From: Brevinematales bacterium
GTDB lineage: Bacteria; Spirochaetota; Brevinematia; Brevinematales; GWF1-51-8
Direction: 5' to 3'
DNA: 42,911 nucleotides
NCBI GenBank assembly: GCA_013177895.1
Contig: JABLXV010000025.1
Location: forward strand, 1 to 42,911
Shown here: positions 5,401 to 42,911 of the stretch, in pieces
How positions within the stretch are numbered: position 1 is the stretch's first letter
How the letters are laid out: each line of letters starts with the position of its first letter
The notes under the pieces: model-generated
Database searches by the model: none
What the model was told of the DNA's origin: nothing
The model's input: the letters and a program-made list of their open reading frames with translations, nothing else
Translations under genes and position numbers: made by a program

Positions 5401-5677
5401 ATTCCCCGCTTCGGCCATGTTTATCGGCGAATATGGTATCGATAAATTCCGAGAAACTCTTCCGGGCATCCTGTTCCGCGGGAATATAACCGGTAATATC
5501 TTTCCCGGTAACTCCCGACTCTCCCGCCCCGATTAATTCATTAAACAGTGAGGATGTATGAATAATATATTTATCAGCCCCGATAACGACATATGACATA
5601 TTTTCCAGAAGATTATTTACATAAAAAGAGTTAGCAGAATTATTATTAATAACAATACCTTTGTTATTTCTTTTCAT
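2483..5677 (-). CDS. Hybrid sensor histidine kinase: PAS repeats, GAF, HisKA-HATPase, receiver
   Basis: The protein (1064 residues from the ATG at 5677) has at least four PAS-like segments in its first 525 residues, for example IPIGVCIHIDRKFIYVNKAG and ISPVGLIVLNKNHKVEFIN. A GAF-like region follows at about 530-690. The kinase core shows the H-box GGIAHDFNN (His near 703), the N-box NLCINAQDA (Asn near 816), DNGIG and GTGLGLA. A C-terminal receiver has the acidic pair EDD and the phospho-acceptor in LLTDVVMP (Asp near 999), with the conserved Lys in QKPFS. No clear membrane span is seen, so it is probably a cytoplasmic sensor. The reading frame extends upstream to a TTG at 5725, but the ATG at 5677 has a GGGG site and starts the conserved-looking part. 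No partner response regulator is adjacent. Confidence 0.9.
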   Translation of the reverse strand: MKRNNKGIVINNNSANSFYVNNLLENMSYVVIGADKYIIHTSSLFNELIGAGESGVTGKDITGYIPAEQDARKSFSEFIDTIFADKHGRSGEFFIGTPEGFRSRQMMVAIPLKDDNAAGGFILILCFNASFYPSRLDTSKAREEDFREMADQIPIGVCIHIDRKFIYVNKAGLLLFRAKNFDEMKGRDIFEFVHPDYRQPVVKRVEYINSQHGEVPFIEEKFLTVDGEVFDVEVFGSSIDYLGQSAVIVFCRGIGMQKGIERRLAESEQKYQSLFDAMLSGFAYHKVIKNKKGEPVDYEFLEANPAYLEMMGLRNKNIIGKTCRELFPETEKSMIRKFTDIGETGKTVRFEHYDSILDRYFEISVYSPERGFFAAVYRDITARKSFEVTLENERDLFNQIVEISPVGLIVLNKNHKVEFINQTVKLMSGITPNGERKMPQTCPVLRISYTDGRAVPDEEMPNELVIKTKKPIRNMTYLLDFDSGIKKYVSINGAPVMNSEGEVDRVVLSVQDISDSTRIENGLEQLIQSSALTGQEFFQAMALGFAKTFELDYVMICMLDESQKDRAKTIALCHQDKIVGNIEYELTGTPCENLSGEKFCVFQSGVRDLFPSAPLLKNFGIEGYGGMPLYSSKGRRLGMLSVMSEKPLTDVSLIEKFASLFAARISSEIERLQMEAERVKIEEQLRQAQKMETIGRLAGGIAHDFNNMLTPIIGYADMILKFDLEPGTSVYESVEELYEAAIRAKNLTRQLLAFGRKQMLILKTVNMNDIISKFFNILRRTIREDIQMKFEPYPELWSIEADVSQIEQILLNLCINAQDAMPKGGYLKIETYNDIVTAARNIESETMHPGDYAVMRISDNGIGIDNEDLPHIFEPFFTTKNEMGTGLGLATVYGIIRQHQGYIKVRSRTGDGTEFEIHFPKTGKDESTGKKNGQSVESLSAADAGEKTILLVEDDTAVRSLTETILKKCGYHVISAAGPVSAKELFYNSGRKIDLLLTDVVMPDMNGQDLHNLLKLTNPGLKALFMSGYTGNLLDIQGFKFSEEEYIQKPFSMNQLIEKIRGIM

Positions 5678-5819: not shown

Positions 5820-7481
5820 ATGTCGAATTTGGAAAATTTTGCAAAGTTAGGTCTTTCTGAAAGCTCAATCGAGGCGTTGGTACACAAGGGGTTTGAAGAA
5901 CCCACTGCCATTCAGGAACAGGTAATCCCTATTCTGTTAAAAGGTGAGAAAGATGTAGTAGGCCAGGCTCAGACCGGTACGGGAAAAACCGCCGCGTTCG
6001 GACTGCCTATTCTTGAACGGATAGAACCCGGGAAAGGTTATGTTCAGGCGATAATACTGTGCCCCACCCGTGAACTCGCGATACAGGTCGCCGAGGAAAT
6101 CAATTCGCTCCGCGGTAAAAAGAATATCCACATCCTGCCGGTCTATGGCGGTTCGTCCATCGAACAGCAGCTCCGGCGCCTGAAGTCGGGTGTGGACATT
6201 GTCGTCGGGACGCCCGGCCGTGTTATCGACCATATCAACCGCAGAAGTCTCGACCTCTCCCATGTATCGTTTATGGTACTGGACGAAGCGGACGAAATGC
6301 TCAATATGGGATTTATCGAAGATACGGAAAAAATTATCTCGCATACCAGTAAAGACCGCAGGATACTGCTCTTCTCCGCTACTATGCCCGACGCCATTCT
6401 CGGCCTCGCGCGGCGGCATATGCGCGATTACGATTTTATCCGTATCCAGAAGCAGCAGCTTACGGTCGCTACGACGGATCAGATTTATTTCGAGGTATCC
6501 GAGGGGGATAAATTCGAAGCGCTCTGCCGTATCATGGATGTGGAAAAGGAGTTCTACGGCCTCGTTTTCTGCCGGACCAAGGTGGATGTCGACGATGTGA
6601 CCAGTAGGCTGATCGACCGCGGCTATGACGCGGACGCTATACACGGCGACCTTTCACAGTTCCAGCGCGAACGCATCATGGAGAAATTCAAAGCTCAGCG
6701 CCTGAATATACTGGTTGCCACCGATGTCGCGGCTCGCGGTATCGACGTCAATAATCTGACGCATGTTATCAACTATTCCCTCCCGCAGGATCCGGAGTCG
6801 TATGTCCACCGTATCGGCCGAACAGGCCGCGCCGGCAGGGAAGGTACGGCGGTAACATTTGTTACCCCCGACGAATACCGGAAACTCCTGTTTATCCAGC
6901 GCGTCGCCCGTGCGGATATCCGTAAGGAAGACCTGCCGGGTGTAGACGAAGTTATCATGCAGAAACGGCTTCGTATCAAGGACGATATCGCCGAACTGAT
7001 TGAAAGCCCGGAAATCGAGGCCTACCGTTCGTTCGCGCATGAACTGATTGATTGGGCGGATCCCGAGACGATTATCGCATCCGTGCTGCGTTACGCGTTC
7101 CAGGACGAGCTCGACCCGTCAAACTACAGCGAAATCCGTAAAGTATCTATCGATAAAAAGGGTAAAGCCCGTCTCTTCGTCGCGCTCGGGCGGAATAAGG
7201 GTATGACACCCAAGAAAGTTGTCGACTTTATCGAGACCGAGACGTCAGTCCGGGGCAACCGTATCCGGGACGTCCGCGTCATGGAAGAATTCTCGTTTAT
7301 TACGGTCTCCTTCGAGGATGCCGAGATCATTCTCAATGTTTTCCGGGAGAAAAATCACGGTCAACGCCCGATGGTCGAGAAGGCTAAAGAAGGCAAGCGG
7401 GACGGCGGTGGCGGCGGCCGGGATGGCGGTAAACGTGACAATTACCGTGACGGTAAACGTAAAAAAGACGGAAGATATTAG
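5820..7481 (+). CDS. deaD: DEAD-box ATP-dependent RNA helicase, DeaD/CsdA type
   Basis: All core motifs of an SF2 DEAD-box helicase are present in 553 residues: Q motif (PTAIQEQ), motif I AQTGTGKT (residues 49-56), PTRELA, TPGR, DEAD (155-158), SAT, and motif VI HRIGRTGRAG. A C-terminal DbpA-like RNA-binding domain follows at about 460-530 (RLFVALGRNKGMTPKKVVDFI), then a basic glycine- and arginine-rich tail (GGGGGRDGGKRDNYRDGKRKK) that probably binds RNA nonspecifically. This layout is that of DeaD/CsdA/CshA proteins, which unwind RNA during ribosome assembly and mRNA turnover, often at low temperature. The helicase is monocistronic, divergent from the hybrid kinase, and followed by the two-CW genes. 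Confidence 0.93.
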   Translation: MSNLENFAKLGLSESSIEALVHKGFEEPTAIQEQVIPILLKGEKDVVGQAQTGTGKTAAFGLPILERIEPGKGYVQAIILCPTRELAIQVAEEINSLRGKKNIHILPVYGGSSIEQQLRRLKSGVDIVVGTPGRVIDHINRRSLDLSHVSFMVLDEADEMLNMGFIEDTEKIISHTSKDRRILLFSATMPDAILGLARRHMRDYDFIRIQKQQLTVATTDQIYFEVSEGDKFEALCRIMDVEKEFYGLVFCRTKVDVDDVTSRLIDRGYDADAIHGDLSQFQRERIMEKFKAQRLNILVATDVAARGIDVNNLTHVINYSLPQDPESYVHRIGRTGRAGREGTAVTFVTPDEYRKLLFIQRVARADIRKEDLPGVDEVIMQKRLRIKDDIAELIESPEIEAYRSFAHELIDWADPETIIASVLRYAFQDELDPSNYSEIRKVSIDKKGKARLFVALGRNKGMTPKKVVDFIETETSVRGNRIRDVRVMEEFSFITVSFEDAEIILNVFREKNHGQRPMVEKAKEGKRDGGGGGRDGGKRDNYRDGKRKKDGRY

Positions 7482-37777: not shown

Positions 37778-38734
37778 TCAGTCTGAAAAAAGATTATTTT
37801 CCAGATTGTTTCTAAGTTTTTGTAATCTTTCTTGAGCTATATCCACATACTCTTTCTTGTTATCAATTCCAATAAACATTCGATTTAATAATAATGCCGC
37901 CGCAAGACTTGTTCCCGAACCGCAAAACGGGTCTAACACTATTTGATCCTCAATTGTTGTTAATTCAATTAACGCCTGCATTAATTTTAATGGTTTCTGT
38001 GTCGGGTGCAAACCCACATCATCCCTTGAAGAACCAATTGAAATGAAGTTATCCGGGGAAACAGTATATTTTAGAAATGCGGTTTCATTAAATGCTCCAA
38101 CATGATGCTCTAGAAAATTATCCGCAATTGTCCCGCCCAGTTTATATGGCTTCATAAACCATAAAATCGGTTCAAATATTGGCCTTAGATTCCCAATTCT
38201 CCATCCATTCCATTTATCTGCACTATAATTATCATTCCTTTTTTCATAAACAACACTCAGTCTTTGAGCCCTATGAGGAGCTTTTTCTTTAATCCAGCAA
38301 ATCATATCTTTATATATAAATCCAGAATCTTCAAGAGCGGAAATACATCTATGAGCAAGCCTTCTTCCAGCAAAAACAATCGCTGATCCCCCGGGTTTTA
38401 AAACTCTTAACCAATCATCCGCCCAACTTTTACACCATCTATAATACTGAATAGGAATGTCTTTATCTGCCTCAGACCATCCATTTAACGGTTTTCCTCT
38501 TTTTTTAAAAACCGCTCCTGCTCTCTCTTGGGCAGGACTTGAACCGAGATATGCCGAGTTTGTATTATCATGTAATACATCCCATTCATCAGCCCCGATT
38601 CCGTAAGGAATATCGCTTATAATCAAATGTATACTGTTCTTATCTATTTTTTCTAATTCTTTTAAGCTATCGCCAAGTATTATCTGATTTAATAGTTCTG
38701 ATAGATAATTTATTTTAAAATCCGTCAGCATCAT
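37778..38734 (-). CDS. hindIIIM: Adenine-specific DNA methyltransferase, M.HindIII-like
   Basis: The 318-residue enzyme is a beta-type methyltransferase: the catalytic motif SDIPYG (residues 40-45) comes first, and the AdoMet motif DPFCGSGTSLAAA comes near residue 270, after HPTQKPLKLM. WDVLHDNTNSAYLGSSPAQERAGAVFKKRGKPLNGWSEADK and WRIGNLRPIFEPILWFMKPY closely resemble M.HindIII as I remember it, so it should methylate adenine in AAGCTT. The ATG overlaps the stop of the endonuclease gene as ATGA, so the nuclease and methylase are translationally coupled, endonuclease first. The gene is AT-rich compared with its surroundings. Confidence 0.88.
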   Translation of the reverse strand: MMLTDFKINYLSELLNQIILGDSLKELEKIDKNSIHLIISDIPYGIGADEWDVLHDNTNSAYLGSSPAQERAGAVFKKRGKPLNGWSEADKDIPIQYYRWCKSWADDWLRVLKPGGSAIVFAGRRLAHRCISALEDSGFIYKDMICWIKEKAPHRAQRLSVVYEKRNDNYSADKWNGWRIGNLRPIFEPILWFMKPYKLGGTIADNFLEHHVGAFNETAFLKYTVSPDNFISIGSSRDDVGLHPTQKPLKLMQALIELTTIEDQIVLDPFCGSGTSLAAALLLNRMFIGIDNKKEYVDIAQERLQKLRNNLENNLFSD

Positions 38735-39615
38735 TTACCCCTTAAATAATCAATATATTTTTTTATAGTATCTATTTTTTCATTTACTTTTAGAGCAGAA
38801 ATTAACTCAATAATCGCAGCTTCATGGGAATAATGCTTTATTTCCCTAATTCTATCATTCCAGAAACTTATTTCTTTCTCACCACGGTTTATAATTGTCT
38901 TCTTGGAATTTTCAAGTTCCCGGTTCAATGAATCAATCATGGTTTTAGTATACTTGCAGATTAACTGGTTTTGTCTTGATAAAAAACAGCGGTCTTTTTC
39001 ATTATGCATTATTTCATTACTTATTACCAGACTAATACTCCAGATAAAAGATAAATCCAAATCATTACTTTCACAAATTTCTTCTTTTAATAAAAAAACG
39101 AGATGTTCCCAACTGAGAAGACATATTCTCCCATCAAGAGCTTGTCCATATACTTGGCTTCTTAATCGGGGATATTGGAAGTAGGGAGCAACTAAAACAG
39201 AAAAATCATGCTGCCCGCGCCAATCAATCATTGATTTAACTTTAAAGTCTTTCTGATTTTTTGCGGTTCTACTTAAACGAAATGCTTTTGCATCTCCAAC
39301 AAGCGAGTAATTATAAGTTTTACTTCTACCAATAACATCAGCACAGTTTGATCTTTGTTGATTCACTTCAGCATTTAATCCTATCTCATGAAAGGCCTTA
39401 GCAAGCGCAATGTCGGCCACTTTAGCGAATAATTTTTCTTCACTTGAATCATGTAAAATACTTTCTGGAATGATACCTATTTCTGATAGAATTGGAATAA
39501 AACTTTTCTTGTCCAGCGAGAAGATTAATCTTTGAATCTTTTCAGAAGAATCATTAAAGGTATCAGTATTTTCAGATTCCTGTTTAATAATTTTTAAAAG
39601 TTCCTGATAGTTCAT
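38731..39615 (-). CDS. hindIIIR: HindIII-like type II restriction endonuclease
   Basis: The 294-residue protein aligns with HindIII, as I remember it, over its length. The most similar stretch is DAKAFRLSRTAKNQKDFKV, followed by APYFQYPRLRSQ and LLSWEHLVFLL. The active-site pair D108 and K110 keep HindIII numbering, and D93 is also present. Residue 86, a catalytic-site Glu in HindIII, is Gln here (NQQRSN). Cleavage of AAGCTT is the inferred activity. AGGGGA lies 6 bases before the ATG, and a promoter with an inverted repeat lies just upstream. The nuclease is the first gene of the operon, so timing of methylation versus cutting must be handled by translation or repression. Confidence 0.9.
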   Translation of the reverse strand: MNYQELLKIIKQESENTDTFNDSSEKIQRLIFSLDKKSFIPILSEIGIIPESILHDSSEEKLFAKVADIALAKAFHEIGLNAEVNQQRSNCADVIGRSKTYNYSLVGDAKAFRLSRTAKNQKDFKVKSMIDWRGQHDFSVLVAPYFQYPRLRSQVYGQALDGRICLLSWEHLVFLLKEEICESNDLDLSFIWSISLVISNEIMHNEKDRCFLSRQNQLICKYTKTMIDSLNRELENSKKTIINRGEKEISFWNDRIREIKHYSHEAAIIELISALKVNEKIDTIKKYIDYLRGK

Positions 39616-42152: not shown

Positions 42153-42181
42153 TTGACACGGATTATCGATTGAATTAGAAT
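42153..42181 (+). promoter_or_regulatory. Sigma-70 promoter of the lipoprotein gene
   Basis: TTGACA (42153-42158) is perfect. TAGAAT (42176-42181) matches five of six. The spacing is 17 bases. The start codon at 42212 follows 30 bp on, with AAAGGGG as ribosome site (42198-42204). Confidence 0.8.
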
Positions 42182-42204
42182 GTGTATCATGTTTTAGAAA
42201 GGGG

Positions 42205-42759
42205 TTGCAACATGAAAAATCTTGTAACACACACACACACACAGCATTTAGCGTTTTATCGCGTCTCGCCGTCATACTAATCATGTCCGTCCTGTCGAAT
42301 TGCGCCATAGTCGAAGAAATCATTACATCGCCTGAAATCGACCTTTTGGATAATTCCTACTGCGAAGTCCCGCAGCTTTCCATCCGGGAACTCGATAACC
42401 TGACGAATATCTACACCAACAGCGTATATTGGCGGGTATCGAAGGGCTGTTCCGTCATGGAAATGAGCGCGTTCGCCGGGATGGAAGGTTTCGACGGCGC
42501 GATCCTCGCGGCGAAACCGGTCGTCATCTACGGGTGGGACGGCGCGCCGAAATATTTCGAATGGCGCGTGTTCAAGGACGGCGCTATCGTCGGGGCGATT
42601 GTCGCGAACGCCAGCAAATTAGTCTGCCGCCCGGTGGTCTACGTCCTGCGAATGGTAAATAGTTACGGGATACTGACGAACTACCCGGCGGGCACGATAA
42701 TTATCGACGACGACTACCCGTATTACGTAAGGTGCGCCCCTGTGTTTGGACAGATTTAG
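42205..42759 (+). CDS. Lipoprotein with (AC)8 tract, probably phase-variable and cut by IS3
   Basis: The long frame (TTG at 42205) encodes HTHTHTAFSVLSRLAVILIMSVLSNCAIVEEI, a lipoprotein signal with the relaxed spirochaetal lipobox LSNC, then about 150 residues of polar sequence (YWRVSKGCSVMEMSAFAG, YGWDGAPKYFEWRVFKDG). The best ribosome site, however, serves an ATG at 42212 in another frame. From that ATG, translation passes through the (AC)8 tract and stops after about 23 codons. Loss of one AC unit would join the ATG to the lipoprotein frame. The 3' end runs into an insertion element that supplies the last codons (PVFGQI) and the stop. No family is recognised. Confidence 0.65.
   Translation: MQHEKSCNTHTHTAFSVLSRLAVILIMSVLSNCAIVEEIITSPEIDLLDNSYCEVPQLSIRELDNLTNIYTNSVYWRVSKGCSVMEMSAFAGMEGFDGAILAAKPVVIYGWDGAPKYFEWRVFKDGAIVGAIVANASKLVCRPVVYVLRMVNSYGILTNYPAGTIIIDDDYPYYVRCAPVFGQI
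42227..42242 (+). repeat. (AC)8 dinucleotide tract in the lipoprotein coding start
   Basis: Eight AC units lie 15 bases after the ATG at 42212. Changes of one unit shift the frame. The signal peptide frame is reached with seven units (or ten). Confidence 0.85.
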
Positions 42760-42911
42760 GGGCAAGTTAAGTTGAATCTTGCTGTGCTCTTTTCTTACAT
42801 CAGTCATTCTAAGCCGCCTTTCCGGTTTTGTCAACAGGCGAAAAGTATATCGAAGCCGGCGGCTTATAACCCAGGCTCTGGTGCGGTCTTTCATGGTCGT
42901 AGTATCTAAAG
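42733..42911 (-). mobile_element. IS3-family insertion sequence, 3' end (cut by window edge)
   Basis: The end is placed near 42733, where TGCGCCCCTGTGTTTGGACA begins with TG and resembles IS3-type terminal repeats. The transposase C-terminus lies inside at 42809-42911. The other end is outside the window, so the boundary is an estimate. Confidence 0.6.
42809..42911 (-). CDS. IS3-family transposase (OrfB), C-terminal end, partial
   Basis: The last 34 codons read FRYYDHERPHQSLGYKPP and ASIYFSPVDKTGKAA, ending in TAG. The ERPHQSLGYKPP segment is the hallmark of the rve integrase core C-terminus in IS3-family OrfB. The catalytic DDE residues and the start lie beyond the window edge. Confidence 0.85.
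   Translation of the reverse strand, partial: FRYYDHERPHQSLGYKPPASIYFSPVDKTGKAA

Follow-up and report, generated by a model that had tools for sequence, protein, structure and literature searches.

In the window, that is, the whole 42.9-kb stretch of DNA analysed here, ATG 42212 of contig JABLXV010000025.1 follows a promoter close to the consensus and a ribosome site at suitable spacing, and an (AC)8 tract behind this start codon throws a lipoprotein body out of its frame. The first-pass annotation had read the locus as a phase-variable lipoprotein gene. The question is whether the AC tract acts as a switch, or whether the gene is decaying, is translated whatever the tract length, or has been misread in the assembly.

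Organization of the 5' end of gene A

The features of the gene, designated gene A here, are listed in Table 1. The promoter, the ribosome site, and the out-of-frame ATG were confirmed as annotated. The expectation that seven units would restore the frame also held, since one AC unit fewer, or two more, would join ATG 42212 to the body frame. In the window copy, the codons ahead of the tract are ATG AAA AAT CTT GTA. The AC run is a short tandem repeat in the 5' part of the coding sequence, with a unit length that is no multiple of 3, as is characteristic of translational phase variation by simple sequence repeats. It is the sole dinucleotide tract of at least 5 units within the window (0 expected from shuffles). 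A TTGACA box was found at the aligned position in four related starts, and purine-rich counterparts of AGGGG were present in 4 of the 4 relatives. The lipobox LSNC of the window copy is atypical in its Asn at position -1; the aligned paralogues have FAGC and VMGC.

Table 1. Coordinates of the features of gene A in the window and of the gene B copies at related loci
Feature	Position	Strand	Remark
Sigma-70-type promoter TTGACA-N17-TAGAAT	42153..42181	+	11/12 consensus positions matched
Ribosome-binding site AGGGG	42200..42204	+	7 nt 5' of ATG 42212
Start codon and OFF-frame leader ORF	42212..42280	+	22 codons, then stop
(AC)8, putative switch tract	42227..42242	+	from sequence and genome-wide uniqueness
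Remainder of signal peptide (body frame), lipobox LSNC	42243..42303	+	Cys codon 42301-42303
N-terminal domain of gene A product, ~140 aa	42304..42727	+	rest of gene on contig C86
ACG target-site duplication, 3 bp	42725..42727	+	both IS flanks compared with uninterrupted orthologue
IS3-type element end	42728..42911	-	integrase C-terminus 42812-42910; runs off contig
Gene B copy	L038 459-1439	-	
Gene B copy	L031 4163-5158	-	
Gene B copy	L035 1947-2927		
Gene B copy	L036 1752-2744		
Gene B copy	L037 5170-6234		

Interruption of gene A by an IS3-type element

The first-pass annotation missed that ORF 42205-42759 covers just the first quarter of gene A (~650 aa), which is interrupted by an insertion sequence and belongs to a two-gene unit. 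The 3' end of this ORF (42728-42759) belongs to the IS element. When the genome was searched with the GWF1_51_8 protein, the first 130 residues matched the window and the remainder matched contig C86, where gene A stays open to its normal end; at its terminus, this contig carries the other end of an IS. The flanks in the window and on C86 share ACG and, once joined, match the uninterrupted orthologue. The 33-aa integrase fragment matched rve_3 with 25.6 bits (1e-5), just below the cut-off of 26.5. With an integrase core, terminal inverted repeats, a target duplication of 3 bp (ACG; 3-4 bp is usual for such elements), and multiple copies, the element is of the IS3 type; its termini are TAAGGTGCGCCCC and GGGGCGCATTATA. 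The sequence from 42728 on recurs at more than 10 other contig ends of the assembly, and the element is probably a main cause of the assembly breaks in this genome. In this assembly, the insertion prevents the dominant genotype from producing full-length protein at this locus, whatever the number of AC units.

Unit numbers and frames of the related alleles

The closest orthologue was found in Spirochaetes bacterium GWF1_49_6, with 96% identity across 149 aa. It is syntenic, with a flagellin gene and two outer-membrane-like genes upstream as in the window. Elsewhere in this neighbourhood, the window carries a HindIII-type restriction endonuclease gene (PF09518, 1.9e-59) with its N6/N4 methyltransferase gene (37778-39615, minus strand); the pair is absent from the syntenic interval of GWF1_49_6 (L032), in which an intact acpS-like gene is found instead. 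In GWF1_51_8, contig ends carry two 5' ends of gene A and two of its 3' bodies; a third copy is more distant. In this third copy (G003:C3, L016 near 1356-1459), a run of N directly follows ATGAAA, at the expected site of the tract.

A repeat was present after 4-5 codons in all five readable 5' ends of the genus (5/5), followed by AGCA(T/C)TTAGCG. The unit numbers, which are assembly consensus values with a one-unit error possible at any single locus, were 8 in the window copy (contig C25), 8 in the paralogue on contig C27, 9 in the syntenic (AC)9 orthologue of GWF1_49_6, 8 CA units on GWF1_51_8 contig C17, and 6 CA units on GWF1_51_8 contig C13. Thus, tract length was not constant across orthologues and paralogues. 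The first four alleles are out of frame (OFF), and the C13 start is in frame (ON). This comparison is between species and paralogues, the relatives being metagenome assemblies, and the differences in tract length between species could be slow drift.

Distribution of long AC tracts

In the 3.6-Mb assembly, AC tracts of at least 13 nt were found only twice, both at the starts of family-A genes, and 0.004 AC 13-mers were expected from the dinucleotide frequencies of the window. The second tract occupies the equivalent position in the C27 paralogue; the promoter, the ribosome site, the tract, and AGCA(T/C)TTAGCG are all kept between paralogues with just 37% protein identity. AC runs of at least 13 nt were likewise confined to family-A starts in GWF1_49_6 and GWF1_51_8, and no long AG tract was found in the genus. 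Across the class as a whole, runs of at least 11 nt of AC turned up only here and there, and the gene A homologues of other spirochaete families had no comparable tract at their starts. G001, a genome of the same genus, had neither gene A nor the tract. As far as sampled, the putative switch tract appears specific to the genus. A phage or viral origin was rejected, the tract and its flank having no match in viral contigs.

Repeats of other kinds were also seen. The poly-G runs of at least 10 in GWF1_49_6 were limited to L066 (G002:C110 ~6855-6867) and L072 (G002:C153 ~5468-5479), adjoining N gaps; they lie just 3' of TTGAC(A/T) boxes, and an ORF preceded by an ATA/TAAAAT box follows them, which makes them candidates for promoter-spacer phase variation. 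In the window genome, L076 (G000:C57:10554-10582) reads TTGATA-(spacer with G8)-TATAAT and may be a promoter whose spacer contains poly-G. At L053 (G009:C13 ~27270), in a different family of the order, ~13 C residues and a (CA)6 run come directly after a start codon; this is a second candidate for repeat switching, though of another type.

Selection on the body and alternative explanations

Over 444 nt, 36 synonymous and 8 non-synonymous differences separate the window copy from the GWF1_49_6 copy, with a dN of 0.024, a dS of 0.483, and a dN/dS of 0.05 for the N-terminal body. Since both orthologues are out of frame in the assemblies, the body frame must be translated often enough for selection to act on it. 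Judged from these substitutions, purifying selection acts strongly on the body despite the OFF alleles. Such a pattern speaks against the view that the tract is a neutral microsatellite in a decaying pseudogene, which the out-of-frame, IS-hit window copy and the GWF1_49_6 copy, shorter than the others at its end, might suggest. Moreover, the bodies downstream of the tract remain open over 589 and 645+ aa, the latter being the intact C27 paralogue, and the tract is retained in strongly diverged (37% identical) paralogues while these genomes carry no other long AC tracts. We consider decay unlikely on these grounds.

If the body were always translated, either from another start or by ribosomal frameshifting on the repeat, tract length would be irrelevant. 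TTG 42205 and ATG 42283, both named in the first-pass annotation as possible tract-independent starts, indeed share the body frame in the window copy. However, TTG 42205 abuts AGGGG directly and is not conserved, being TTA in GWF1_49_6, where stops separate the site from the tract; with just 6 residues left ahead of the Cys, ATG 42283 gives no signal peptide. No in-frame start lies 5' of the tract in the C27 copy, and the two in-frame starts of GWF1_51_8 C17, 49 and 70 nt upstream of the tract, are poorly placed, in or near the promoter. No alternative start having both a ribosome site and a leader was found in the OFF alleles, and on sequence grounds neither TTG 42205 nor ATG 42283 is a plausible translation start. 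AC repeats are not known to be a slippery sequence, and constant translation as a whole seems very unlikely. It is least credible that errors of assembly or sequencing account for the tract lengths and that all the real genes are in frame. Such repeats are error-prone and several contigs end close to family-A genes, but mistakes would be required at 4 of 5 separately assembled loci, and short-read sequencing is usually correct on dinucleotide runs of 16-18 nt. Even so, a slippage-prone conserved tract would stay at each gene start.

Products of gene A and gene B

The gene A protein belongs to a spirochaete family of putative lipoproteins, of which 12 homologues were aligned. The alignment comprises a lipoprotein-type leader, an N-terminal domain with PKYYEFRV...GxI, and then Cys (CGP), His (HYR/HWR), and D-N. 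The Cys, Asp, and Asn are invariant in the 12 homologues and the His is present in 11 of them; in the gene of the window, these catalytic-type residues lie outside the window, on C86. Seven family members gave weak matches to Peptidase_C39_2 (PF13529) at the Cys/His/D-N segments, all below the Pfam cut-off (best score 17.1 bits; cut-off 24). The family shares with Peptidase_C39_2 and papain-like peptidases the Cys of CGP followed by HxR/HYRV and then D-N, and differs in that the genus copies carry a large insert between Cys and His. The gene A product is thus a putative papain/C39-like peptidase lipoprotein as far as the residue pattern indicates, and its N-terminal domain presumably resembles the propeptide of such peptidases. 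Neither a sequence comparison with the PDB nor an NCBIfam search gave a useful match, and AlphaFold2, supplied with only 3 sequences, returned a pLDDT of 29. In GWF1_49_6, the stop of gene A (G002:C16, L032 near 14676) lies ~60-100 codons before those of its relatives, near a contig end.

Gene B, a second lipoprotein gene, follows gene A by 13-20 nt in 5 of 5 copies (16 nt on C86). Its product is ~330 aa long with a conserved C-terminus, DISSLGLSE, and a Pfam search gave no family besides a hint of lipoprotein attachment.

Possible mosaicism between gene A copies

Over the first ~150 codons, the window copy and the GWF1_49_6 copy shared 83-96% DNA identity. Beyond alignment column ~330, GWF1_49_6 was mostly like GWF1_51_8 C31 (60-88%, columns 330 to 540), while the C86 remainder was nearer to GWF1_51_8 C39 (52-73%) than to GWF1_49_6 (down to 38-67%). 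The two GWF1_51_8 copies shared 90-100% identity close to their 5' ends, but beyond column 330 the values were mostly 36-66%. These identities would fit an exchange between gene A copies.

Discussion

The comparison, with its variation of the tract, selection on the body, and lack of an alternative start, supports the initial reading of a phase-variable lipoprotein. We estimate a probability of roughly 0.85 that the AC tract serves as a simple-sequence contingency switch of the family-A lipoprotein genes. Replication slippage within populations would add or remove AC units. One of the three length classes would place the ATG, with its ribosome site, in frame with the signal peptide and lipobox, and would yield a lipoprotein of ~650 aa that bears a papain/C39-like Cys-His-Asp/Asn centre. 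In the other two classes, translation would end within ~10-25 codons, and gene B would probably be silenced by polarity. The copies within one genome have their own tracts and may be in different states. The product is predicted to be lipidated and surface-exposed and may act as a peptidase.

In the opa genes of Neisseria, a CTCTT pentamer lies in the leader of each paralogous surface gene, the genes switch independently, and the bodies, which encode outer-membrane beta-barrels, are mosaic. A paralogous family with its own leader repeats is common to both systems; here the repeat is a dinucleotide, the product is a lipoprotein, and the number of copies seen per genome was two or three. In oipA of Helicobacter pylori, a CT-dinucleotide repeat lies in the signal-peptide region and the unit number sets the ON/OFF state by frameshift (PMC10564699). 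The family-A genes share with oipA, as well as with sabA and babB, a dinucleotide repeat in the leader of an exported protein and frameshift switching as proposed here. They differ in having AC instead of CT, a lipoprotein with a putative papain-like domain instead of a Hop porin/adhesin, and a groundwater organism as the carrier; there is no homology. The proposed switch is of a known kind; the organism is unexpected. Among the papers searched, none described a phase-variable cysteine-protease lipoprotein, and none dealt with the genus.

More tentatively, and with somewhat less than even confidence, we propose from the sequences that an uncultured, free-living spirochaete genus, with no known animal host, keeps a few A-B lipoprotein operons, each of which switches independently of the others. 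Recombination among copies, and among species, would involve the 5' ends that these operons have in common and the 3' ends in which they diverge, and a putative secreted peptidase would thereby vary both in its combination of ON/OFF states and as a mosaic. Repeat-driven phase variation has been described mostly from host-adapted pathogens and commensals, and a putative papain-like lipoprotein operon would be an unusual cargo for a repeat switch. The conservation of such a switch among species and paralogues of spirochaetes that are known from metagenomes only would suggest that, in a free-living setting, phages, grazers, or competitors exert the pressure.
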